From NCBI GenBank assembly GCA_017446885.1, contig JAFSOR010000028.1, positions 62,001 through 126,000 of the forward strand: a DNA stretch of 64,000 bases, in the 5' to 3' direction. The stretch is from Spirochaetia bacterium (lineage in GTDB: Bacteria; Spirochaetota; Spirochaetia; CADAEX01). Positions 16,912 to 56,399 of this stretch are shown here, in pieces (the first letter of the stretch is position 1; each line of letters starts with the position of its first letter). Below the pieces are notes generated by a model. That model was not told where the DNA came from. It did not search any database and was given only the letters and a program-made list of their open reading frames with translations. The position numbers were made by a program, and so were the translations under genes.

Positions 16912-18090
16912 TTATTTTCCGCACTTGCATCCAGGAGCCTTTACGATTGGAACCTTGCATCCGCAAGCCTTGAGTGCAGCCTTGAGCTCTTTCATAGCAG
17001 CCTTGACGTCTGCTGGTGTGTTAGCTCCCAGGTTGCAGAGTCTGAATGTAGGCAGGTTTCCGATCTTTCCAGGATAGATTGTGATTCCCTCTTTGAACAG
17101 GTAGTCATGAACCTTCTTGAAGTCGAACTTCTTGTCTTCTGGGTACTTGATTGCAATTACGAGACCTGTTGTGATCTTTGGATCCAGGAGTTCCTCGAGG
17201 CCCATCTTTGCAGCTTCTTCTCTGATGATCTTGGTGATGTCCATGAATCTCTTGTACTTAGCCTTCTCGCCCTCTGCGAAGTGCTCCTTGAGAGCCTGCT
17301 GCATTGAGTAGATGATCTGTACAGGAGGTGTGAAGTTCATCTCGCCGTGCTCCTTGAAGTAGCTGTACTGTCTCCAAAGGTTGCAGTAATAGCTTCTTGG
17401 CTTGTAGTCCTTTGTCTTCTCGATCTCAGAAACTTTTCCGATGAGGAATGAGCATCCTGTGAATGCGTTGATACCCTTCTGGCTGGATGCCATACAGAAG
17501 TCGATGTTGTCCTTGTATACGTCGATTGGGATGATTCCCAGTGTGGATGTGGTGTCGGAGATGAAGATCTTTCCGTACTTGTGAGCAATGGCACCAACCT
17601 CTCTGATTGGGTTGCAGAGACCTGTTCCTGTCTCCTGGTGAGCCATGTAAACAGCTGCTACGTCGTCTTTGTTTGCAGCAAGAGTCTTCTCTACTACATC
17701 AAGGTCCGGGAGTGTCAGGATGTCGAATGCGCAGTTTACAACAGGAATTCTGTAGTACTCAGCTGCCTGCATTGCTCTGTCGTTGTAGAAACCGTTGTTG
17801 ACAATCATGATCTTCTTTCCGTCAGGAATAAGAGATCCAACAGCAACGTCGATACAAATGGAGCCGGAACCAGCGAAGAGTGTTGCAACATATTCGCCTT
17901 TCTTTCCGTGTACGATCTTTACAAGGTCATCAGCAACTTTTCTTGTGATAGCTGCGAATGAGCCTTCTCTGTGGCAGATATCTTCCTGAAGCAGGGAAGC
18001 CTTAACTGTCTTTGTTGTTGTTGAAGGACCTGGGTTCAGAAGAATAGTCTTCTTGATTGTCTTTGAAATTTTCTGTTCCTTTAATTTCAT
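16912..18090 (-). CDS. class V aminotransferase, 2-aminoethylphosphonate-transaminase-like
   Basis: A PLP enzyme of 392 residues, similar to the PhnW/alanine-glyoxylate class. LLNPGPSTTTKTV opens the fold, the PLP Asp is in FISDTTS (Asp179), and the Schiff-base lysine is Lys205 in SSQKGI. Such enzymes move an amino group from a small amine (aminoethylphosphonate, or alanine and similar) to an oxo acid; the donor here is not known. The C-terminus ends in an unusual basic, cysteine-rich tail (ACGCK...GCKCGK). Codon use is strongly biased (AGA, CCA, ACA), unlike the flanking genes, suggesting high expression. It is divergent from the TRAP transporter. The start at 18090 has AAAGGAG 8 bases upstream; an ATG at 18117 is less likely. 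Confidence 0.82.
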   Translation of the reverse strand: MKLKEQKISKTIKKTILLNPGPSTTTKTVKASLLQEDICHREGSFAAITRKVADDLVKIVHGKKGEYVATLFAGSGSICIDVAVGSLIPDGKKIMIVNNGFYNDRAMQAAEYYRIPVVNCAFDILTLPDLDVVEKTLAANKDDVAAVYMAHQETGTGLCNPIREVGAIAHKYGKIFISDTTSTLGIIPIDVYKDNIDFCMASSQKGINAFTGCSFLIGKVSEIEKTKDYKPRSYYCNLWRQYSYFKEHGEMNFTPPVQIIYSMQQALKEHFAEGEKAKYKRFMDITKIIREEAAKMGLEELLDPKITTGLVIAIKYPEDKKFDFKKVHDYLFKEGITIYPGKIGNLPTFRLCNLGANTPADVKAAMKELKAALKACGCKVPIVKAPGCKCGK

Positions 18091-18145
18091 AATATTTCTC
18101 CTTTTATGAGTTTTCAAAATCCTAATATGGATAACTTTAGTATAT

Positions 18146-18173
18146 ATATTATCAATTTAAATAAAAGCGTCAA
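18146..18173 (-). promoter_or_regulatory. promoter of the aminotransferase gene
   Basis: On the minus strand TTGACG (18173-18168), a 16-bp spacer and TAATAT (18151-18146). The same spacer length and the same -10 sequence occur in the divergent promoter of the TRAP binding protein. This predicts a leader of about 50 nt before the start at 18090. Confidence 0.65.
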
Positions 18174-18479
18174 TCTGAAAAGGCTTATATTTATGAAAAA
18201 TTTTCATTTTTTTTAAATTTTTTATGAAATTTTGGCTTTATATAATAGTGTTTTTAGAGATATTAGATATGCAAAAAATGTTAAAAAATTATAAAAATGG
18301 GAAAATCAAATTTTGGGGAGGGAGCAGGATTCTTCTATTAATCCCTTTTAACAAATGACTTTTTAGGGGATTTTAGAACATGAATTGTTAAAAAATTGTA
18401 AAATCATAGATATTTTAGAGTTATTAGAGAAAATAAATAAAGTATTTTTGTTAATATTGTAAAAAAAGAAATTTTGTTC
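18174..18479. other. AT-rich intergenic region between divergent aminotransferase and TRAP genes
   Basis: About 300 bases with no gene. It contains a palindrome ATGAAAA-A-TTTTCAT at 18193-18207. A near-identical motif occurs twice: GTTAAAAAATTATAAAA at 18280-18296 and GTTAAAAAATTGTAAAA at 18387-18403. A weaker third copy starts at 18450 (GTTAATATTGTAAAA). The motifs TTTTAGAG(A/T)TATTAGA at about 18252 and 18413 are also repeated. This looks like a regulatory region with several binding sites, but no regulator can be named. Confidence 0.45.
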
Positions 18480-18507
18480 TTGACAATTTATTGAAGCATG
18501 ATAATAT
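18480..18507 (+). promoter_or_regulatory. promoter of the TAXI-TRAP operon
   Basis: A consensus -35 TTGACA at 18480-18485, a 16-bp spacer, and -10 TAATAT at 18502-18507. The start point is expected near 18514, at the edge of an 18-bp palindrome. Confidence 0.75.
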
Positions 18508-18514
18508 CAAAAAT

Positions 18515-18551
18515 ACAGAATTTAAATTCTGTCACCAAAGTTTGTTGGTGA
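18515..18551 (+). promoter_or_regulatory. perfect 18-bp palindrome and leader hairpin at the TRAP start point
   Basis: ACAGAATTTAAATTCTGT (18515-18532) is a perfect palindrome placed right at the predicted transcription start, which is a classic operator position. It is followed directly by a second inverted repeat, TCACCAA (18532-18538) and TTGGTGA (18545-18551), which would form a 7-bp hairpin in the mRNA leader. Either could control or stabilise the transcript. Confidence 0.55.
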
Positions 18552-18572
18552 ATTAAATTTTAGGAGAGAAAA

Positions 18573-19559
18573 ATGAAAAGAAGTATCGTACTCGCTCTTT
18601 GCTTGATTCTCTGCGCTTCCATGGCATTCGCTAACGGTACTGCTGAAGCTGGCGCTGCAGCAGGAAACAAGGCAATCATGGGAACATCAAGCTTAGGCGG
18701 ATCCTGGTATCCAACAGGATCAGCTATTGCAGGTCAGGTTATGACACACACTGACTCCATCATCACAGCACAGGCTACTGGCGGTGGAACAGAGAACCTG
18801 AGACTTATGATGCAGAACCAGATGCAGATTGGTCTTTTCGAGACCAACGTTACTTTCTATGCTTTCAACGGCGAGAAGCTGTTCGAAGGACAGAAGTATG
18901 ACAACCTGAGATTCTGTGCTAACCTTTACCCACTGGTATTCCAGGCACAGGTACAGAAGGCATCAAAGTTCACAACATTCAAAGAGTTCTGCGCAGCAAA
19001 AGCTAGCTTCTGCCCAGGATCCCCAGGATCTGGAGACGAAGTTGCATGGCAGGAGATCTTCGAAGGCGCATTCGACACCAACTATAAAGACATCGTATGG
19101 AAGCCACTTTCCCACAACGAAAGAGTTATGGCATACCAGGACAGACTTCTTGATGGTATCGGACACGAGACAGCAGTTCCAGCAGGTGCTATCCTTGAGT
19201 CATCCGCTCAGATCCCTGTAAGAATTCTTGCAATCGGCGGCGCTGAGAGAGACAAACTGATGGCTAAGTATGCATGGGTTGGAAAGTGGACAATTCCTGC
19301 AAACTCATACAATGGACAGGACGAGGCAGTTGAGACTGTAACAACAGGTACATGTCTTGGTGCAGATGCTGTAAACGCTCCAGAGAAAGTTGTATACGAC
19401 ATGGTATCAACAATCTACGGACCTGGCCTCAAGGCTATCCAGTCTGTACACTCATTCACACCTTACATCACTCTTGACATCGCTCTTGATGGAAGAGGAG
19501 CTATCCCACTGCACCCAGGTGCTGAGAAGTTCTACAAAGAGAAAGGTATGATCAAATAA
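18573..19559 (+). CDS. TAXI-family TRAP transporter substrate-binding protein
   Basis: A 328-residue periplasmic binding protein. The signal peptide ends at about AFA-NG (residue 20), and the mature start NGTAEAG is typical of spirochaete binding proteins. The TAXI core GTSSLGGSWYPTGSAIA is followed by ATGGGTENLRLM. TAXI-TRAP systems use a sodium gradient to import organic acids or amino acids; the ligand here is unknown. Codon use is highly biased (AGA, CCA, ACA), pointing to very high expression. It is followed by an intercistronic hairpin and the fused TRAP permease. The ribosome binding site is AGGAGAG, 7 bases before the ATG. Confidence 0.9.
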   Translation: MKRSIVLALCLILCASMAFANGTAEAGAAAGNKAIMGTSSLGGSWYPTGSAIAGQVMTHTDSIITAQATGGGTENLRLMMQNQMQIGLFETNVTFYAFNGEKLFEGQKYDNLRFCANLYPLVFQAQVQKASKFTTFKEFCAAKASFCPGSPGSGDEVAWQEIFEGAFDTNYKDIVWKPLSHNERVMAYQDRLLDGIGHETAVPAGAILESSAQIPVRILAIGGAERDKLMAKYAWVGKWTIPANSYNGQDEAVETVTTGTCLGADAVNAPEKVVYDMVSTIYGPGLKAIQSVHSFTPYITLDIALDGRGAIPLHPGAEKFYKEKGMIK

Positions 19560-19583
19560 GTTTTGAACTTATTGAACACAGGG

Positions 19584-19609
19584 AGTGCATCTGAGCAATC
19601 AGATGCACT
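19584..19609 (+). other. intercistronic hairpin between TRAP binding protein and permease
   Basis: A perfect 10-bp stem GTGCATCTGA/TCAGATGCAC closed by a GCAA tetraloop, with only a weak T-rich stretch after it. In transporter operons such a structure often lowers read-through and protects the upstream message, so that binding protein exceeds permease. Confidence 0.65.
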
Positions 19610-19671
19610 TCTTTATGTTATAACCCGTACAACTTGTTTCTACAAAAATAAGACTAACTAGGAGATTATGA

Positions 19672-21903
19672 ATGGGGGACAAAGATAACGAATATTTGAA
19701 GGACGTCGCTGATCAGCTTAAAGGCATGGACGAAGATGCCAGAAAAGAAGCTGCGGCTATGGCCAAAAAAGCAGAGGAGATGGATAAGCAATTATCCGGA
19801 TACCGCGATAACAAAAAATCTATCCTTGTACTGATTTCTGTTGTCGCTGTATGTTTCGCTCTGTTCCACTTCTATACAGGTGGATTTGGAATGTTTACCG
19901 CCATCAGACAGAGAGCCATTCACTTGGCATTCGCTCTCTGGATTTGTATGATGAGATATTCTTCCAACAAGAACGCAGGACCGAAAGTTGAGCCTTGGCT
20001 GCCACACTTCTTCCTGTGGATTATGGTAATGGGTACAATCAACATTCCGCTGGTTGATTACGCAATGAAGAACCGCGTGAACATGATGCCGATAATTGCA
20101 GCAGTAGGTGTTATCTGTATTATCGCCGCAGTAGTCAGCAGAATGATTACCCTTAAGATGAGAATGAAAGCTAATAAGGCTGTTGAGGACGGACCAATGT
20201 GGTACGACTGGATCTTCCTTATTTGTTCAACAATCGGATGTATCTATATTGCAATCAATACTGATAAGATTCTCCAGAGAGTTGGTATTGTATACACAAT
20301 CGACCAGATTATGGCTCTCTACCTTCTTATTGGTACTATCGAGGCAACAAGACGTTCTATCGGAAAAGTCCTGATGTGGATTGGTATCTTCATGCTCCTG
20401 TACTGCCGCTTCGGTTTCCTCTGCGGAGGAATCTGGAACCATCCAGGATTCACATTCAAGATGATCGCAAGACACTTCGTTCTTTCCGACGCAGCTCTGT
20501 GGGGAACTCCTATCGGAGTATCCGCATCTTACATCTCCCTGTTCCTGCTCCTTGGTGCAGCTCTTCATGCCACTGGTCTTGCAGAGCTTCTGCTTAAGGT
20601 TGCAAAGGGTCTTGTAGGACACTTCGTAGGTGGACCTGCAAAGATGGCCGTAGTTGCATCTTCTATGTTCGCTATGATTTCCGGATCTTCAACATCCAAC
20701 GTAGCAACAACTGGTGTTATCACCATTCCTCTGATGAAGAGAACTGGTATTCCAGCAGCCCTGGCCGGAGCTACTGAGGCTTCCGCTTCCATGGGTGGTC
20801 AGGTAACTCCTCCTGTAATGGGTGCAGTAGCATTCATCATGGCAGAGTTCCTTGGAATCTCCTACATCTCCATCATTACAGCAGCTGCAATCCCTGCTCT
20901 TCTCTATTATGTTTCTGTATTCACAATGATTCACTTCGAAGCACATAAGATCGGAGCTTGGGGACTTAAGAAGTCTGAGATCGACCCGACCTGGAAGCAC
21001 GATATTGTTACCAAGGGTTATCTGATTCTTCCTGTAGTTATGCTGGTTTACATGCTGGTTAAGGGTTATACTGCAATGGCTGCATGTTTCTATTCATTCA
21101 TCGTTGCTGTATGTCTGTCCTTCTTCAGAAAAGACACCAGACTCAACCTGAAAAAGTTCAAGGGTATCTTTGAGCAGGCTGGTATGACACTGTGTGTAGT
21201 AGCTGTTCCATCAGCTATCGCAGGATTCGTAGAAGGTACTGCAACTCTTACAGGTCTTACACCACACATCACAAAGGTTCTTACTGAGCTTTCACACAGT
21301 AACCTTTACCTGACACTGCTTATCACAATGCTTATGTGTCTGGTTCTTGGTATGGGTGTTCCTACAGTTGCAAACTACATCCTTATGACCATCATGACAG
21401 TTCCTACAATGATTTCTGTAGGAGTTATGCCACTGGCAGCACACCTGTTCTGCTTCTACTTCGGTATTATGTCAGAGCTTACACCTCCAGTTGCTATCAC
21501 ATCCTATACAGCAGCAGCTATCGCTGGCGCTCCATTCTGGCCAACAGCATTCAATGCGGTCCGCTTGGCAGCCGTTGCATACATCGTACCTTACATCTTT
21601 GTATTCAACACATCACTGCTGCTTGGTACCGAGCCATTTAAACTTAGTATTATCTGGGGTGTTATCACCGCAGCATTCGGTTCATGTACATTCGCTATCG
21701 GTATGGCAGGATTCATCCGCAGAAAGATGTTCCTTATCGAACGCTTCGCAATCTGTGCATTTGCAGTTCTCATGATCGTACCTACAGTAGTTACCGATAT
21801 CGTCGGTATCGCTGGTGTACTGTTCATCATTGCTATGCAGTGGATTTATAAGAAGAATCCTAAGAATTACATTCCACCGGTTAAGCCAGATTTTGCTGCT
21901 TGA
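19672..21903 (+). CDS. TRAP transporter fused 4TM/12TM permease
   Basis: A 743-residue inner-membrane protein combining the small (DctQ-like) and large (DctM-like) TRAP subunits, the usual form for TAXI systems. After an N-terminal charged, coiled-coil-like segment (residues 1-40) there are many membrane spans. Family motifs include the glycine-rich SGSSTSNVATTG (about 344-355) and ASMGGQVTPPVMG, and near the C-terminal half SELTPPVAI. It works with the binding protein just upstream as a cation-driven importer. The start at 19672 follows AGGAG by 7 bases; a nearby ATG at 19668 is out of frame and closes quickly. Codon bias matches the binding protein. Confidence 0.92.
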   Translation: MGDKDNEYLKDVADQLKGMDEDARKEAAAMAKKAEEMDKQLSGYRDNKKSILVLISVVAVCFALFHFYTGGFGMFTAIRQRAIHLAFALWICMMRYSSNKNAGPKVEPWLPHFFLWIMVMGTINIPLVDYAMKNRVNMMPIIAAVGVICIIAAVVSRMITLKMRMKANKAVEDGPMWYDWIFLICSTIGCIYIAINTDKILQRVGIVYTIDQIMALYLLIGTIEATRRSIGKVLMWIGIFMLLYCRFGFLCGGIWNHPGFTFKMIARHFVLSDAALWGTPIGVSASYISLFLLLGAALHATGLAELLLKVAKGLVGHFVGGPAKMAVVASSMFAMISGSSTSNVATTGVITIPLMKRTGIPAALAGATEASASMGGQVTPPVMGAVAFIMAEFLGISYISIITAAAIPALLYYVSVFTMIHFEAHKIGAWGLKKSEIDPTWKHDIVTKGYLILPVVMLVYMLVKGYTAMAACFYSFIVAVCLSFFRKDTRLNLKKFKGIFEQAGMTLCVVAVPSAIAGFVEGTATLTGLTPHITKVLTELSHSNLYLTLLITMLMCLVLGMGVPTVANYILMTIMTVPTMISVGVMPLAAHLFCFYFGIMSELTPPVAITSYTAAAIAGAPFWPTAFNAVRLAAVAYIVPYIFVFNTSLLLGTEPFKLSIIWGVITAAFGSCTFAIGMAGFIRRKMFLIERFAICAFAVLMIVPTVVTDIVGIAGVLFIIAMQWIYKKNPKNYIPPVKPDFAA

Positions 21904-49517: not shown

Positions 49518-50858
49518 TTACCGCTCTTCTATCGGGATATAAGGCTTTTTAGGTGCCACAACACGGTATGCAGGTCTTATAAGCTTGCCTCCGCTTACCA
49601 GTTCCTCTATGCGGTGGGCAGACCAGCCGGCCACCCGTGCCATTGCAAAGAGCGGTGTGTACAGAGCTGTCGGTATGTTCAGCATCTTGTATACAAAGCC
49701 CGAGTAGAAGTCCACGTTAACGCTGCTGCTTCTGACATTCTTTCCTTCAGCCTGCATTGCCTCGGGGATAAGGCGCTCCACAGTATTGTAAAGGTTGAAC
49801 TCGTCATCATAGCCCTTGGCGGCGGCAAGTTCGGCAGCCTTTGCCTTAAGTAGCACGGCCCTTGGGTCGGAAAGGGTGTATATCGCATGGCCGAAACCGT
49901 AGACTATTCCAGTCCGGTCAAAAGCTTCCTTTCTAAGTATTTTGCGCAGGTAGTCAATAAGCTGTCCCTCGTCTTTCCAGTTCGGGACATTTTCCATTAT
50001 ATCTTCCATCATCCGCTTAACTTTCTTGTTGGCACCGCCATGGAGAGGGCCTTTCATGGAGCAGAGGGCTGCCGCTATTGCGGCGTAGGTGTCGGTCTGA
50101 GCCGATGTGACCACATGGTTTGTGAATGTGGAGTTGTTACCGCCGCCGTGTTCTGCATGCAGGATAAGGGCGATATCCAGGACCGATGCCTCAAGCTCGG
50201 TGTACTTGGTGTCGGGTCTGATCATGCGCAGGAAGTTGGCAGCTGTCCCGATCTTGGGTGCCGGAGCGTGCAGGAACAGGCTTTTGCCGTCGTGGTAGTG
50301 GGCCTTTGCCTGGTAGCCGTAGGCAATCATGGTTGGAAACCGTGCTATAAGCTCTATGCACTGCCTGAGCACATTGTCTATAGAGACATCGTCGGCATTG
50401 GAGTCGTAGGAATAAGATACCAGCACGCTCCGGGCCAGTTTGTTCATAACATCGCGGCTGGGTGCCTTGAGTATCATGTCCTCGGCAAAGCCGGCTGGCA
50501 GCTGACGGCAGCTGTCAAGTACAGTGTTGAACTCTGCAAGCTCGTCTGATGTTGGAAGCTTTCCAAAAAGAAGGAAGAAAGCTGTCTCTTCAAAGCCATG
50601 CCGGTTTTCCTTTATGGCATTGGAGACCAGGTCGTTTATAAGGACACCCCGGTAGGTGAGCCTTCCTTCGTCCGGCACCAGGGTACCTTCATCAAATATA
50701 TATCCATGGGCATCACCTATCTGCGAAAGCCCCACCACCACTCCAGAGCCGTCTTCGTTCCTGAGGCCGCGCTTGGTGTTGTACTTCAAATAAAGTGCGG
50801 GATCTATGGAATTGTTGCGGATTGTTGTTTCTGTCATCTTGCTGATAAATGCTTCCAT
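49518..50858 (-). CDS. gltA: citrate synthase
   Basis: A 446-residue type II-like citrate synthase that condenses oxaloacetate with acetyl-CoA. All three catalytic positions are visible: His in GPLHGGANKKV, His in YGFGHAIYTLSDPRA and Asp in NVDFYSGFVY. This is the canonical enzyme of the window and a useful contrast to the two degenerate homologs encoded 260 bases away on the other strand. The start at 50858 has an excellent site (AGGAGGAAG). The genome probably uses it for glutamate synthesis or a partial TCA pathway, which is inference. Confidence 0.95.
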   Translation of the reverse strand: MEAFISKMTETTIRNNSIDPALYLKYNTKRGLRNEDGSGVVVGLSQIGDAHGYIFDEGTLVPDEGRLTYRGVLINDLVSNAIKENRHGFEETAFFLLFGKLPTSDELAEFNTVLDSCRQLPAGFAEDMILKAPSRDVMNKLARSVLVSYSYDSNADDVSIDNVLRQCIELIARFPTMIAYGYQAKAHYHDGKSLFLHAPAPKIGTAANFLRMIRPDTKYTELEASVLDIALILHAEHGGGNNSTFTNHVVTSAQTDTYAAIAAALCSMKGPLHGGANKKVKRMMEDIMENVPNWKDEGQLIDYLRKILRKEAFDRTGIVYGFGHAIYTLSDPRAVLLKAKAAELAAAKGYDDEFNLYNTVERLIPEAMQAEGKNVRSSSVNVDFYSGFVYKMLNIPTALYTPLFAMARVAGWSAHRIEELVSGGKLIRPAYRVVAPKKPYIPIEER

Positions 50859-51118: not shown

Positions 51119-52015
51119 ATGGATCGTAAACCCTTGATCCAGAGAAAGACTGGTATTTCTTACAAGACAGAAGAAAAAACAGTTCTTCGCGGTTTTGATG
51201 TACGCGAGCTCGCTAACGCTGGCTACACATTTATCGATGGACTGTACATTCTTTTCCAGGGCAGAATTCCTGCAGAGAATGAAAGAGCAATGCTCGACTA
51301 CGAAGTTGCAGAATTCCTTGAGCACTCAATGTCACCTTCAGCAGCAGCTGCAATCGGCGTTATGAACGGACACCCAATGCTCCCAGCAGCAGTTGGTGCT
51401 TCTATCGCAACATTCGGTGGAGCTCACGGACCAGGAGCTCAGCACGGCTACATGATGAAAAAATACCTCGACAGAGCAGTTCTTGAGCACAAGACAGTTG
51501 AACAGGTTGCTGTAGAGTGTGTTGATGAGTACATGGATGCAGGTAGAGCAGTTATGGGAATGGGACAGCCACAGCACCTTGACGGCGACCCAAGAGCAGA
51601 ACCGACACACCTGAAGCAGGAAGAGATCGGAGTTGTAGGTGTTTACCTGAAATTCCAGAGAGCTCTTGAGAAACACTTCTATGCAAGAAGATTTGCTGAA
51701 GGAAGATCCTATGTAGCAGTTAACATGATCGGTGCTGGTAACACAGCTCTCTCCGACATGGGATTCTCTCCAAACGCAGCTTGGACAATCGGATGCGTAA
51801 CCAGAGGTTACAGCTGCTCCTGCCACGCCCTCTTCACACTGAAGAAAGGTAGAGCTTGGGGTGCATCCAGAAACGAACCAATGGTACAGATGCTTGACCT
51901 CTCCATGATCAAGTACATCGGACCAGAAGACAGAGAAGTTCCTCTTCAGTCAGAAAGAGAAGCTTATGCTATGAACGAACTTAAGACAGGAGAATTTAAA
52001 AAATGGGTGATCTGA
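51119..52015 (+). CDS. degenerate citrate synthase/citryl-CoA lyase-like protein A
   Basis: A 298-residue protein with the citrate synthase small-type fold, most like citryl-CoA lyases. By hand alignment, the first catalytic His is kept (His103 in GGAHGPGAQHG), the second is Gln150 (GMGQPQHLDGDPRA against GFGHP...DPRA), and the catalytic Asp is replaced by Ile204 (NMIGAG against NVDGA). Normal citrate synthase or lyase chemistry is therefore doubtful. Codon choice is extremely biased, suggesting an abundant protein. The gene overlaps its paralogue by 13 bases, so the two products are probably made together and may form a heteromer. AGGAGG lies ahead of the ATG. Confidence 0.75.
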   Translation: MDRKPLIQRKTGISYKTEEKTVLRGFDVRELANAGYTFIDGLYILFQGRIPAENERAMLDYEVAEFLEHSMSPSAAAAIGVMNGHPMLPAAVGASIATFGGAHGPGAQHGYMMKKYLDRAVLEHKTVEQVAVECVDEYMDAGRAVMGMGQPQHLDGDPRAEPTHLKQEEIGVVGVYLKFQRALEKHFYARRFAEGRSYVAVNMIGAGNTALSDMGFSPNAAWTIGCVTRGYSCSCHALFTLKKGRAWGASRNEPMVQMLDLSMIKYIGPEDREVPLQSEREAYAMNELKTGEFKKWVI

Positions 52016-53121
52016 AAGACGTTGCTGTAAACAGAATGACCGGAAAGGTATGCGATGAGAGAATCGCTCAGATGAAGCATGCAAAGAGAAGAGTTATTGG
52101 TAACCTCGGAAATCCAAACCTTCTTTTTGACTATACAAACAGAGAGATTGGTTGTCTCCCAGACGACAACAGAGCTCACTTCAAGTGGGTTTCTGAAGTT
52201 GCATACAAGAACATCCACAGAATCGTAACCAGAGGTTATGATACAACAGAGCTGGTAGAAGCTGGCTATGGTGTTTGCGATGTTCTGTTCATCGACTTCC
52301 AGGCTAGAATCCCTCTGGTAGAGGAGAGAAAAGTTCTCGATTATATCCTTCTCGTAGGACTTGAGGACGGACTTTCCAACCCAGCACTGGTTGCAAGACT
52401 GGTAGCTAGAGGAAAATCATACCTTACACAGGCTGCAGGTGCTTCTGTATTTGCATTCGGTGAGGCTTATGGTGCATTCAAGAACTTCGGTTACATGCTT
52501 GAGAAATACTACAACATGATTGCTGAGAAGGGAATCTCTGCTGCAGATGCAGCTGCTCTTTGTGTAGAAGAGTGCTATCACGAGGATCACTTCGGAATCG
52601 ATGAGAAGTATGTAAAAGACCCAACTCCAAGAGATCTTTTGGCATATGCAGAGAAGACAATTGCCGGCAAGAAAGAGCTTAAGTATATCCCATTCCTGAA
52701 AGAAGTTGTTAAGGCTGCTCAGGCAAAGATCGGATATGTAGAGGCTGACTTCATGGCTGCTGCTACAGCTGCAATGATGGACCTTGACTTCACTCCAGAT
52801 GCTGCATGGTGTATCATGGGTGTTACAAGAGCATTCTCAGCTGGCGCACACGTTTGCGAAGAGATTGAGAGAGAGTGCGAGAGAGACGGTTTCGATACAT
52901 ATGGCAAGACACTTACTCCAAAAGAGTGGTATGACGGCCCAACTGACAGACCAGTTCCATCCCTCGCTGAGAGAGGTGAGTTCAAGGGCGGTCAGGCTCA
53001 GACACCAGAAGAATGGAAGAAGATGTGGGACAGAAAGGCTAAAGAGCTCTCCGGTTCCGGATTTGCTATTGACTTCGTTCTTGACGACGCTAGAAAAGTT
53101 GTTCACGGAAAGAAGAAATGA
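52003..53121 (+). CDS. degenerate citrate synthase/citryl-CoA lyase-like protein B
   Basis: A 372-residue paralogue of the preceding protein with about 65 extra N-terminal and 85 extra C-terminal residues. The shared core starts at about residue 75 (VTRGYDTTELVEAGYG). By hand alignment the first catalytic His is Tyr156 (GEAYGAF), the DPRA motif is DPTPRD, and the Asp position is Met251 (ADFMAA), so none of the three catalytic residues is retained in place. The C-terminal extension is charged and rich in Trp/Lys. The start lies inside the end of gene A with AGGAG upstream. Codon bias matches A. A structural or CoA-binding partner role is possible but unproven. Confidence 0.72.
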   Translation: MGDLKDVAVNRMTGKVCDERIAQMKHAKRRVIGNLGNPNLLFDYTNREIGCLPDDNRAHFKWVSEVAYKNIHRIVTRGYDTTELVEAGYGVCDVLFIDFQARIPLVEERKVLDYILLVGLEDGLSNPALVARLVARGKSYLTQAAGASVFAFGEAYGAFKNFGYMLEKYYNMIAEKGISAADAAALCVEECYHEDHFGIDEKYVKDPTPRDLLAYAEKTIAGKKELKYIPFLKEVVKAAQAKIGYVEADFMAAATAAMMDLDFTPDAAWCIMGVTRAFSAGAHVCEEIERECERDGFDTYGKTLTPKEWYDGPTDRPVPSLAERGEFKGGQAQTPEEWKKMWDRKAKELSGSGFAIDFVLDDARKVVHGKKK

Positions 53122-53223: not shown

Positions 53224-54663
53224 ATGGCTGTTGAAGAAAACATTGCTGAAATGTATGAACGCGGTAGAAAAGCTTTCGAGTGGATCGAGTTCAAGACACA
53301 GGAAGAAGTAGATGAACTTGTTGCTATCGTTGGATGGCAGTATCTCCAGAAGCAGGTTGCTGAAGAAGGCGCTAAGCTGGCTTATGAAGGCTCCGGAATG
53401 GGCGTTTACGCTGACAAGTACGGAAAAGCTGGTAAGGTTAGAGGTATCCTGTGGGATATGAAGGGTGCTAAGACTTGTGGCATCATCAAAGAGGATCCTA
53501 TCAGAGGAATCACAACATATGCAAAGCCAATGGGCGTTGTTGCTAACGTATGTCCATGTACAAACCCATGTATCACAGCTGCATTCATCGGTCTTACACT
53601 TCTTAAGACAAGAAACGCTATGATCTGCTCACCACACCCAAGAACAAAGCTTGCTACAGTAAACGCAGTTAACTGGGGAAGAAAAGCTCTTAAGGCTGCT
53701 GGTGCTCCAGAGGACCTGTTCCAGGTAATCGCAGAGCCTTCCAACGAGAAGACAGTAGAGCTTATGCAGAAGTGCGACTTCGCAGTTGCAACTGGTGGAA
53801 AGGCACTTATCAAGGTTGTACACCTTGCAGGTACACCATCTGTTACAGTAGGTGCTGGTAACGTAAGAGCAATCGTAGACCCATCTGCAGACCTGGCTCA
53901 TGCAGCACAGTGCATCGCAGCTTCCAAGTGCTACGACAACGCAACATCATGTTCTTCCGAGAACGCAGTTTCCATCCACGTAAGCATTTACGACAAGATG
54001 ATGGAAGAGCTCAAGAAAGTAGGCGGATACCTGCTGGACGATGCAAGCAGAGAGAAACTCAGAGCTGCTATGTGGCCTGATGGACATACTCTTAACAGAG
54101 ACATCGTTGCAAAACCAGTTCAGACAATCGCTAAGATTGCTGGAATCTCTGTACCAGAAGGAACAAAGTTCATCATGGTTAAGGGACAGAAGATTGGTCC
54201 AGAAGATATGTTCTCAAACGAAAAGCTTTCTCTTATCCTCACAGTATGGACATGGGAAGATTTCGAGACAGAAATCCACGATCTCAAGAAGAACCTGTAC
54301 TTCTCCGGTGTTGGTCACAGCTGCGCACTTCATTCAACAAAGCCAGAGCAGTGGTACAGACTTGCTGAGTTCATTCCTACAGGCCGTGTAAACATCAATA
54401 TGCCTAACACAGTTGTTAACTCCGGTAGCTGGTTCGCTGGCCAGGAATTCACAACAACAATCGGCTGCGGAACATGGACAGGAAACAGCCACTCTGACAA
54501 CATCAACTTCAGACACTTCATCAACACAACAAGACTTGCTGTTCCAAGAGCATGGTATGTTGCAACAGACGACGAAGTATTCGGAAAGTATCTTGCAAAG
54601 GCTAAGAAACTTATCGGCGACGACAGAGTTGATATGCCACACAAGCCAGCTTACCTTGACTGA
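53224..54663 (+). CDS. CoA-acylating aldehyde dehydrogenase
   Basis: A 479-residue NAD(P)-dependent enzyme of the EutE/AdhE-N/SauS group, which converts an aldehyde plus CoA to an acyl-CoA. The catalytic Cys243 is in NATSCSSEN, the early motif KPMGVVANVCPCTNP and the SPHPRTK segment are typical, and the nucleotide region reads ATGGKALIK. A fused alcohol dehydrogenase domain is absent. The aldehyde is unknown; acetaldehyde, succinate semialdehyde and sulfoacetaldehyde enzymes all occur in this family. Codon bias is as strong as in the two preceding genes. AAGGAG precedes the ATG and a strong terminator follows, so it closes the three-gene unit. Confidence 0.88.
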   Translation: MAVEENIAEMYERGRKAFEWIEFKTQEEVDELVAIVGWQYLQKQVAEEGAKLAYEGSGMGVYADKYGKAGKVRGILWDMKGAKTCGIIKEDPIRGITTYAKPMGVVANVCPCTNPCITAAFIGLTLLKTRNAMICSPHPRTKLATVNAVNWGRKALKAAGAPEDLFQVIAEPSNEKTVELMQKCDFAVATGGKALIKVVHLAGTPSVTVGAGNVRAIVDPSADLAHAAQCIAASKCYDNATSCSSENAVSIHVSIYDKMMEELKKVGGYLLDDASREKLRAAMWPDGHTLNRDIVAKPVQTIAKIAGISVPEGTKFIMVKGQKIGPEDMFSNEKLSLILTVWTWEDFETEIHDLKKNLYFSGVGHSCALHSTKPEQWYRLAEFIPTGRVNINMPNTVVNSGSWFAGQEFTTTIGCGTWTGNSHSDNINFRHFINTTRLAVPRAWYVATDDEVFGKYLAKAKKLIGDDRVDMPHKPAYLD

Positions 54664-54680
54664 TTTGTCTAAGCTTATAG

Positions 54681-54706
54681 GGCTCCCGACCGGGAGCCTT
54701 TTTTTT
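54681..54706 (+). terminator. terminator of the aldehyde dehydrogenase unit
   Basis: GGCTCCC/GGGAGCC stem with loop GACC, followed by eight T. It separates the abundant operon from the HAD gene, whose ribosome binding site starts right after the T-tract. Confidence 0.93.
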
Positions 54707-54717
54707 AAGGAGGGAAT

Positions 54718-55419
54718 ATGATTAAAGCATTGGTTTTTGATTTTGTGCAGACACTTGGCGATGCAGCAAGCGGATATAAGGATGGCGAGAAAAATGCCCA
54801 GAACAAGCTTATCGAGGCACTGGGGATAACCGACACCGAAACCTTTATGACCCATTTCCGCGAGATAAGGAAAAAACATTTCCTGGCTGCCGACTTTGAC
54901 CGCAAGAACCAGTGGCGCGAGCTTCAGGCCATATATGGAAAAGAGCTTGGCGAATCTTTCCTTAGCAAGCTTGCAGACGAGTACTGGCAGTTTGTAATAG
55001 ATGCCATGAAACTTTTCCCCGAGGCAGAGGAAGTAATCATAGACCTTAAGAAAAAATACAAGCTGGGCCTTATCTGCAACTCACAGCGGGACGGCTCCAC
55101 CAGAGCCCTGCAGAGCCCCGAGTTCGAGCGCGCCTGCAAGTACTTTGACAGCTATATCCTTTCCGGCACCGACGGAATCCCTGCAAAACCAGATCCTGCG
55201 CCATTCAAGATGATGCTTGATAATCTGGGTGTGACAGCCGACGAGGTTATCTACATAGGCGACGACTATAGGGTGGACATAGAAGGTGCCCATGGCGCTG
55301 GAATCAAGTGCATATGGCTTAAGCACTATTCTGTAAAGCGCAACTGGCCCGAGAACACTCTGGGAGTGCCCGAGATTACCGACCTTAAGCAGCTGGCAGG
55401 GCACGAGCTTTTAAAGTAA
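54718..55419 (+). CDS. HAD-superfamily protein with altered motif I
   Basis: A 233-residue HAD subfamily IA protein (YjjG/PhnX-like cap). The nucleophile Asp8 is present, but motif I reads FDFVQTL: the second Asp, the general acid/base, is Val10. Motif II (CNSQRDG), the lysine of motif III (PAKPDPAPF) and motif IV (YIGDDYRVD) are normal. Loss of the second Asp usually lowers phosphatase activity, so a different chemistry or a regulatory role is possible. The start at 54718 has AAGGAGGG upstream and directly follows the terminator T-tract. Confidence 0.82.
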   Translation: MIKALVFDFVQTLGDAASGYKDGEKNAQNKLIEALGITDTETFMTHFREIRKKHFLAADFDRKNQWRELQAIYGKELGESFLSKLADEYWQFVIDAMKLFPEAEEVIIDLKKKYKLGLICNSQRDGSTRALQSPEFERACKYFDSYILSGTDGIPAKPDPAPFKMMLDNLGVTADEVIYIGDDYRVDIEGAHGAGIKCIWLKHYSVKRNWPENTLGVPEITDLKQLAGHELLK

Positions 55420-55493: not shown

Positions 55494-56399
55494 ATGAATT
55501 TATATCACTTAAAAACTTTTTATTTTACAGCCAAGTACAAGAGCCTTACCAAGGCGGCTGAGTTCCTTTGCATTACCCAGCCGGCTGTAACCAAGCAGAT
55601 CAAGCAGCTGCAGAGCCACTACAACCTCAAGTTCCTCGATATCATTGGCAAAAAAGTGATTCTGACCGATGCAGGGCTTAACCTCTACACCATTGCAGAG
55701 CGGATTTTTGACATGGAGTCCCAGGCCGAAGAGGCAATAAAGGATTTCCAGGAGTACAACAAGGGCAAGATAAGCATTCTGGCTTCCGAAAGCTTCGGAT
55801 CTTACCACATTCCTTACATCATACGCGATTTCAAGCAGACACGCCCCGAGATAAGTATCTCTATCCAGACAGCCACAAACAAGGATATCATCGAGAGCAT
55901 ATCAGAACTTAAAGAGGATATCGGATTTATCTCTGCCCCGGTGCAGAACCCCAAGATTTCTGTGCACGAGATACTGGAAGATGAGATTGTGCTGGTGGCA
56001 AGCCCGAATTGCAGGTTCACAAGCACAAAAGAGCTTAACCTTATGGACCTTGAGGGAAAAGAGATAATTATGCACGAGCAGGGTTCTGTAATCCGCAAGG
56101 TTGTAGATGCCTTCCTTAAGAAGAACAAGATAAATATGTGCATGAAGTACGAGATTTCCAACAGCGAGGCAATAAAGAAGCTGGTAGAGAACAACATGGG
56201 AATGGCATTCCTGACCAAGAGCATTGTCCACAAGGAGCTTAAAAGCGGTGAGCTTATAGCTATCCCTGTTCCGGATAAGAACTTCAGGCGCAAATACTAC
56301 ATGATTTACCACAGCGAGAAATATTTCTCCAAACCGCTTAAAGATTTCCGCGACCTTATAATGAGGTGGGCCGACATATACCCTACTGTTTCAGGCTGA
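55494..56399 (+). CDS. LysR-family transcriptional regulator
   Basis: A 301-residue regulator. The N-terminal winged helix-turn-helix (1-62) has KSLTKAAEFLCITQPAVTKQIKQL, recognised by its TKAAEFLCITQPAVTKQ core. The effector domain (about 90-295) has the periplasmic-binding fold, with KISILASESFGSYHIP and NNMGMAFL. The co-inducer is unknown. It lies after the HAD gene and one base before the inositol-phosphatase gene, with which it probably shares a transcript. It could regulate the aldehyde dehydrogenase unit upstream, but this is only a positional guess. Confidence 0.9.
   Translation: MNLYHLKTFYFTAKYKSLTKAAEFLCITQPAVTKQIKQLQSHYNLKFLDIIGKKVILTDAGLNLYTIAERIFDMESQAEEAIKDFQEYNKGKISILASESFGSYHIPYIIRDFKQTRPEISISIQTATNKDIIESISELKEDIGFISAPVQNPKISVHEILEDEIVLVASPNCRFTSTKELNLMDLEGKEIIMHEQGSVIRKVVDAFLKKNKINMCMKYEISNSEAIKKLVENNMGMAFLTKSIVHKELKSGELIAIPVPDKNFRRKYYMIYHSEKYFSKPLKDFRDLIMRWADIYPTVSG

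Follow-up and report, generated by a model that had tools for sequence, protein, structure and literature searches.

A candidate route for 2-aminoethylphosphonate degradation through a coenzyme A ester and a citrate-synthase-like protein pair in a spirochaete

The hydrolytic routes reviewed for 2-aminoethylphosphonate (AEP) are PhnWX and PhnWAY (PMC10574752), and the known routes of this type end in PhnX or in PhnY-PhnA. AEP occurs naturally, and its carbon-phosphorus bond is hard to break. A 64,000-nucleotide stretch of the genome of a gut Spirochaetia bacterium (assembly GCA_017446885.1, contig JAFSOR010000028.1, positions 62,001 to 126,000; hereafter the window) carries six genes that may encode another way of using this compound. 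It seems to us evenly balanced whether these genes, together with a LysR-type regulator and perhaps a HAD-family hydrolase, make up an AEP catabolic route that passes through phosphonoacetyl-coenzyme A (phosphonoacetyl-CoA) and in which the carbon-phosphorus (C-P) bond is cut by two citrate-synthase-like proteins, A and B.

The six genes lie in two groups. In the first, a PhnW/AepZ-type class V aminotransferase gene (16912-18090, reverse strand) precedes genes for a TAXI-family TRAP solute-binding protein (18573-19559) and a fused TRAP permease (19672-21903), both on the forward strand. The second comprises the genes for A (51119-52015), B (52003-53121) and a SauS/EutE-like acylating aldehyde dehydrogenase (53224-54663), all on the forward strand. 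The TAXI-TRAP system would import AEP, which the aminotransferase, a PhnW family member with a predicted activity, would convert to phosphonoacetaldehyde. The dehydrogenase would then use nicotinamide adenine dinucleotide and CoA to form phosphonoacetyl-CoA, by analogy with the conversion of sulfoacetaldehyde to sulfoacetyl-CoA, and a heteromer of A and B would break the C-P bond to release acetyl-CoA and phosphate. A preliminary description of this DNA had placed the genes at these positions, where we find the expected families, and had predicted a chain of import, transamination, oxidation to acyl-CoA and a step by A and B. Gene clustering and co-occurrence with PhnW support that chain, with its enzymatic steps as predictions.

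Scanning 84,980 species genomes yielded 69 loci, whose record titles span Spirochaetota, Desulfobacterota, Planctomycetota, Verrucomicrobiota, Gemmatimonadota, Proteobacteria and Chloroflexota. The two genes are adjacent in about 61 of the 69 loci, and the dehydrogenase gene follows B, or follows a PhnW gene that itself follows B, in about 51. An orthologue of the window aminotransferase (45-54% identical) stands directly after B in 18 loci (L042, L046, L049, L057, L058, L060, L063, L066, L071, L073, L075, L076, L077, L081, L084, L089, L090 and L093). The dehydrogenase gene comes next in 13 of these, and the contigs of the other five end there. The genes for A, B, the optional PhnW and the SauS-like dehydrogenase are contiguous in other loci, so that what the window holds in two separate places corresponds to a single cluster elsewhere.

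The same association is found at the level of whole genomes. PhnW scores above its cut-off in 39 of 50 A-B genomes versus 30 of 290 sampled genomes of the phylum that lack A-B; with A-B carriers excluded from the phylum sample, Fisher's test gives p ~1e-22, or ~1e-32 for stand-alone forms, values that are indicative only because the two samples differ in taxonomy. Across all 296 sampled phylum genomes, PhnW exceeds the cut-off in 34, mostly as long PntC-type fusions judging by reading-frame length. The preliminary description had named a lack of co-occurrence as grounds for abandoning the pathway, and no such lack is found. Within the organism's own family A is present in 10 of 11 genomes, and outside it only two clear cases occur among the 296 sampled genomes. 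The cluster is also found in very different bacteria (L042:1276-4333 and L065:4313-8118) with A proteins that are 65-75% identical, which suggests horizontal transfer.

The phosphonate context of the cluster is strongly supported. Among 136 neighbouring proteins that were scanned, the commonest families are phn_DUF6-like (15), HpnZ-like (10), PbfA (3), PhnT2 (3) and PhnC (3), although the phn_DUF6 and HpnZ matches inspected in detail lie below their cut-offs. None of the 25 most frequent neighbour families belongs to sulfonate degradation. Locus L061 encodes both a true PbfA (700 bits, cut-off 525) and a true PhnW (495 bits, cut-off 296), and L085 includes a PhnD-like receptor. Alanine dehydrogenase adjoins PhnW in L085 and L086, as would be expected for a transamination that depends on pyruvate. 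A true PbfA is also encoded in 9 of the 11 family genomes. The PbfA and PhnD/PhnC/PhnT2-type neighbours favor AEP between the two amines that had been suggested originally; taurine finds no such support and is retained below as the substrate of a rival route.

PhnW and PbfA both make phosphonoacetaldehyde, and the known consumers of this compound were not found, so that A and B would fill a gap. PhnX (TIGR01422) exceeds its cut-off in none of the 11 family genomes and none of the 50 A-B genomes, in a search that included no positive control genome. PhnA (TIGR02335) is likewise found in none of the 11 family genomes, and the C-P lyase protein PhnJ (PF06007) is absent from the window's genome by a search that was positive for an E. 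coli control. The dehydrogenase itself scores 25.7 bits against the PhnY model TIGR03250 (cut-off 635.65), a comparison that covered this protein alone.

A different set of genes recurs near A and B in Planctomycetota. Paired MtmB-like methyltransferases (PF05369, 292-293 bits) are encoded at L056:6400-9191, L061:7154-9958 and L096:15169-17945. In L056 and L061 the pair sits between a PbfA-like gene and A, and the reading frames are uninterrupted. These pairs might demethylate N-methyl-AEP.

The window aminotransferase is proposed to be an AEP:pyruvate transaminase on the basis of its profile match, its solved relatives and the position of its orthologues after B. Its score against TIGR03301 (PhnW-AepZ) is 374.9 bits (cut-off 360.8), which places it within this family. 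The best solved relatives are 6pd1, the aminotransferase domain of PntC, and the PhnW structure 1m32, and K205, the predicted pyridoxal phosphate lysine, aligns with the lysine of both and is invariant in 26 sequences. 6pd1 is the biosynthetic two-domain PntC of a treponeme. The gene is assigned an ATG start at 18090, within a longer open reading frame (ORF) that begins with TTG at 18117.

The dehydrogenase is the candidate CoA-acylating phosphonoacetaldehyde dehydrogenase. Its closest specific family is SauS (NF047625; 452.1 bits, cut-off 600), and it also matches EutE/AdhE-type models. A nucleophilic cysteine is present in the motif SCSS, where C243 and the surrounding residues are invariant in 50 sequences. 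The aldehyde used by SauS is the sulfonate isostere of phosphonoacetaldehyde.

Proteins A and B are recognizable as divergent members of the citrate synthase fold. A scores 40.7 bits against PF00285 (cut-off 27), and neither A (111.7 bits) nor B (65.6 bits) reaches the cut-off of 212 for the citryl-CoA lyase models of PRK06224. B is approximately 32% identical to A, and the two genes overlap by 13 bases. AlphaFold models of both proteins have moderate confidence overall, and the best Foldseek match of each is the citryl-CoA lyase 6hxp (E = 5e-9 for A and 2.5e-6 for B), which agrees with the predicted fold.

In 65 sequences of A, residues H69, H103, R159, R229 and R272 are invariant. H69 corresponds to the oxaloacetate-binding His238 of citrate synthase and H103 to the enolate-stabilizing His274. 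The place of the signature His320 (His975 of ACLY) is occupied by Q150 in all 65 sequences. At the place equivalent to the catalytic Asp375, A has V/I204 in the register of 6hxp or N202 in that of citrate synthase. An initial reading of Asp375 as replaced by Asn at N202, which came from aligning A to citrate synthase with MAFFT, was dropped; because the closer citryl-CoA lyase aligns V/I204 here, the claim is narrowed to a loss of the Asp from A in either register. In B the three His places are filled by D122, Y/F156 and, in most sequences, S/D200. B has lost the equivalents of the catalytic histidines, and its own catalytic-Asp register is ambiguous between L/M251 and D249.

By these sequence comparisons, A retains the enolate-stabilizing His but neither the Asp that acts as the base nor the His that activates the carbonyl. 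Such a site would neither deprotonate acetyl-CoA nor activate a keto acid, but it could still hold an enolate, which fits an enolate that arises by the loss of another group. The decarboxylating condensing enzymes that derive from thiolases are a parallel. In A, the group whose departure yields the acetyl-CoA enolate would be the phosphonate, and B, lacking the histidines, would serve as a partner that completes the A site. We rate somewhat short of an even chance the specific proposal that A-B is a new heteromeric C-P-cleaving enzyme of the citrate synthase fold, with A as the catalytic subunit, that hydrolyzes phosphonoacetyl-CoA via a thioester enolate to acetyl-CoA and phosphate. This reaction would be independent of oxygen and dependent on CoA, and it would allow anaerobes to gain carbon, nitrogen, phosphorus and energy from AEP.

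Two further observations concern citrate-synthase-like genes. In the family loci that were read (L031-L039), the opposite-strand neighbor of A is a canonical-type citrate synthase gene (49518-50858 in the window), and the window copy has no unusual codon bias (AGA 4/25). At L097:5932-8468, a lone divergent A-like protein (30%) is encoded directly before a SauS-like (55%) dehydrogenase with no B nearby; HpnZ-like and MFS genes accompany this dehydrogenase.

The HAD-family hydrolase gene (54718-55419, forward strand) could encode an accessory protein or the C-P hydrolase itself. In the latter case phosphonoacetyl-CoA would form in the same way, but an Asp nucleophile of the HAD would attack phosphorus with the thioester enolate as the leaving group, and A-B would act on the acyl-CoA in some other way, for instance by Claisen-type condensation, by hydrolysis of the thioester or in salvage. 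The gene accompanies SauS in 29 of 44 loci, 32 of 35 sequences have G, V or C in place of the second motif-I Asp, and three Arg residues do not vary. PhnX also lacks the second motif-I Asp. However, the HAD is absent beside SauS in about nine loci where the sequence continues, no invariant PhnX-type cap lysine exists in the sequences compared, and in the window its gene lies behind a terminator-like hairpin and does not share the codon adaptation of A and B. This alternative also leaves the universal conservation of A-B unexplained, and we consider it unlikely. Assignment of the window HAD as PhnX was rejected, since the TIGR01422 search did not retrieve it and it lacks an invariant cap lysine. 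A phosphonatase could instead split phosphonoacetaldehyde to acetaldehyde and phosphate as in PhnWX, with the dehydrogenase then making acetyl-CoA and A-B acting downstream on this product. EutE/AdhE-type enzymes do use acetaldehyde, and PhnX-like HAD proteins (97-125 bits, below the cut-off) occur in 13 of the 50 A-B genomes. This arrangement is rather improbable given the absence of PhnX above its cut-off from the 11 family and 50 A-B genomes, the closer match of the dehydrogenase to SauS, with its isosteric substrate, and the lack in A of residues for deprotonating acetyl-CoA.

The SauS match, the relatedness of many carriers to sulfate reducers and a sulfatase-family neighbor in L059 would each suit a sulfonate route, from taurine through sulfoacetaldehyde to sulfoacetyl-CoA, in which A-B cut a C-S bond. 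The membership of the aminotransferase in the AEP-specific PhnW-AepZ family and the phosphonate character of the neighbor tally, which includes PbfA and PhnD/PhnC/PhnT2-type genes, make it quite improbable. Operation of A-B, the dehydrogenase and the aminotransferase in the direction of AEP biosynthesis is very improbable: the aminotransferase does have its nearest solved relative in 6pd1, the nucleotidyltransferase/aminotransferase of biosynthetic PntC, but C-P bond formation from acetyl-CoA and phosphate is thermodynamically unlikely on general grounds, and the clusters hold uptake systems, PbfA and alanine dehydrogenase.

Several points count against C-P cleavage of phosphonoacetyl-CoA by A-B. 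The genome that contains the window yielded no PbfA, and the sub-cut-off PhnX-like proteins of the 13 A-B genomes might cleave phosphonoacetaldehyde. Near the active site the AlphaFold models are weak and too uncertain to support a mechanism, and the catalytic Asp column can be aligned at either of two places, two positions apart. The dehydrogenase does not reach the SauS cut-off, which leaves phosphonoacetaldehyde as a candidate substrate. In addition, 11 of the 50 A-B genomes have no PhnW above the cut-off and genome G009 has PhnW and PbfA with no A-B; gaps in metagenome-assembled genomes could explain some of the former and possibly the latter. It is the CoA intermediate and the C-P cleavage step that we infer.

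Pronounced codon bias had first drawn the six genes together. When pooled, they use AGA for 86% of Arg (n = 95), CCA for 60% of Pro (n = 108) and ACA for 70% of Thr codons (n = 155), compared with 21%, 28% and 41%, respectively, in sampled ORFs in or near the window. The bias had been described as holding almost throughout, which is accurate for AGA, partly so for CCA and ACA, and not for the permease (AGA 13/20, CCA 13/32, ACA 26/48). The contrast drawn with purL holds (AGA 6/34). Codon adaptation was scored by a leave-one-out procedure, in place of a classical codon adaptation index reference set, on 508 ORFs from approximately 570 kb of the window's genome, in stretches that do not include the main ribosomal operon. 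The SauS-like gene ranks 1, B 2, TAXI 4, PhnW 5 and A 7 among the 508 ORFs, which confirms the bias in these five; in the permease (rank 22) it is weaker.

Other top-ranked genes, named by sequence inspection, appear to encode hydrogenase/NADH-dehydrogenase-type subunits, a membrane pyrophosphatase, the ribosomal proteins L9, S6 and L20, DnaK and a porin. Because hydrogenase-like, pyrophosphatase-like, ribosomal and DnaK genes show a similar bias, it is the usual signal of high expression, and its use as a pathway marker was rejected: the bias does not by itself tie the genes into one pathway, as had been proposed, but marks expression level. High codon adaptation suggests that the route is a major source of carbon and energy for the organism. 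A second phnW paralogue in the same genome (L130:6709-13009, contig C12) is 92-93% identical and equally codon-biased. Its neighbors are an ornithine-cyclodeaminase-family gene, a TRAP permease (63%), a weak Asp/Glu-racemase-like gene, a TAXI receptor (39%) and a LysR gene, and this locus possibly serves another amine or phosphonate.

The bias in the second gene group spans A, B and the dehydrogenase and ends at an intrinsic-terminator-like hairpin before the HAD gene. This element (54679-54700, forward strand), 3' of the dehydrogenase gene, has a stem of nine pairs, six of them GC, and a T tail, and is identified by consensus match only. Neither the HAD (AGA 1/9) nor the LysR gene (0/9), which lie beside the SauS-like gene, shares the bias. 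The LysR-type protein (55494-56399, forward strand) is the proposed regulator of the route. It scores 169.3 bits against phn_lysR TIGR03339, below the cut-off of 341.1, and homologues (38-45%) are encoded near A-B in about eight other loci.

The transport proteins are well classified, with scores of 188.2 bits for the candidate AEP receptor against TIGR02122 (cut-off 84.35) and 575.4 bits for the permease against TIGR02123 (cut-off 320.65). The TAXI gene adjoins phnW across the genus wherever contigs permit, its homologues (45-46%) adjoin true PbfA in three sister-genus genomes, and a permease homologue (53-55%) adjoins phnW in the sister genus. From this one line of evidence, synteny with PhnW and PbfA within a single family, we infer AEP import. 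TAXI receptors are numerous in the family (4-9 matches per genome), and several lie beside differing catabolic genes (L130, L138, L139, L140 and G000 contigs). One of those in L138 has genes for a saccharopine-dehydrogenase-like protein and for a SauS-like (35%) dehydrogenase in its vicinity.

The sources of the named relatives of the window's genus are sheep rumen, the omasum and reticulum of yak, buffalo reticulum and horse faeces, and the sister-genus bins are apparently from termite guts, judging by their names. The isolation of AEP from rumen protozoa dates to 1959 (cited in PMC10590968), and AEP has served as a rumen protozoal marker, although it occurs in bacteria and feed too (PMC4659874). 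If the proposed route is correct, it would explain AEP use by anaerobes that do not have the terminal enzymes of the known routes, such as spirochaetes of the rumen and the termite gut and many uncultured members of Desulfobacterota, Planctomycetota and Verrucomicrobiota. It would also add C-P cleavage chemistry to the citrate synthase fold and give a function to two protein families that are now without one; should A-B be shown to cut the C-P bond, it would be a new kind of enzyme. We found no literature report of phosphonoacetyl-CoA in phosphonate breakdown, only one paper on biosynthesis, within incomplete coverage that leaves most subscription journals outside. An AEP route through a CoA ester with A-B thus appears to be an undescribed enzyme set.

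This predicted route shares with PhnWX and PhnWAY a PhnW-type transamination to phosphonoacetaldehyde, carbonyl activation of the C-P bond and a side entry through PbfA. Unlike in those systems, a CoA-acylating enzyme apparently oxidizes the aldehyde, and we assign cleavage of the C-P bond to two citrate-synthase-like proteins. The window aminotransferase has its closest solved homologue in the aminotransferase domain of PntC (6pd1), but it stands alone in a catabolic context, whereas PntC is a biosynthetic fusion with a nucleotidyltransferase. The dehydrogenase belongs to the same enzyme family as SauS and likely performs the same chemistry on an isosteric aldehyde, yet it differs from SauS in its subthreshold score and its phosphonate gene context. 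Finally, A and B share their fold with citryl-CoA lyase (6hxp) and citrate synthase, and A retains the enolate-stabilizing His of these enzymes. They depart from them as two unlike subunits encoded by overlapping genes, with the signature His changed to Gln and the Asp lost in A, and with the His residues lost in B.

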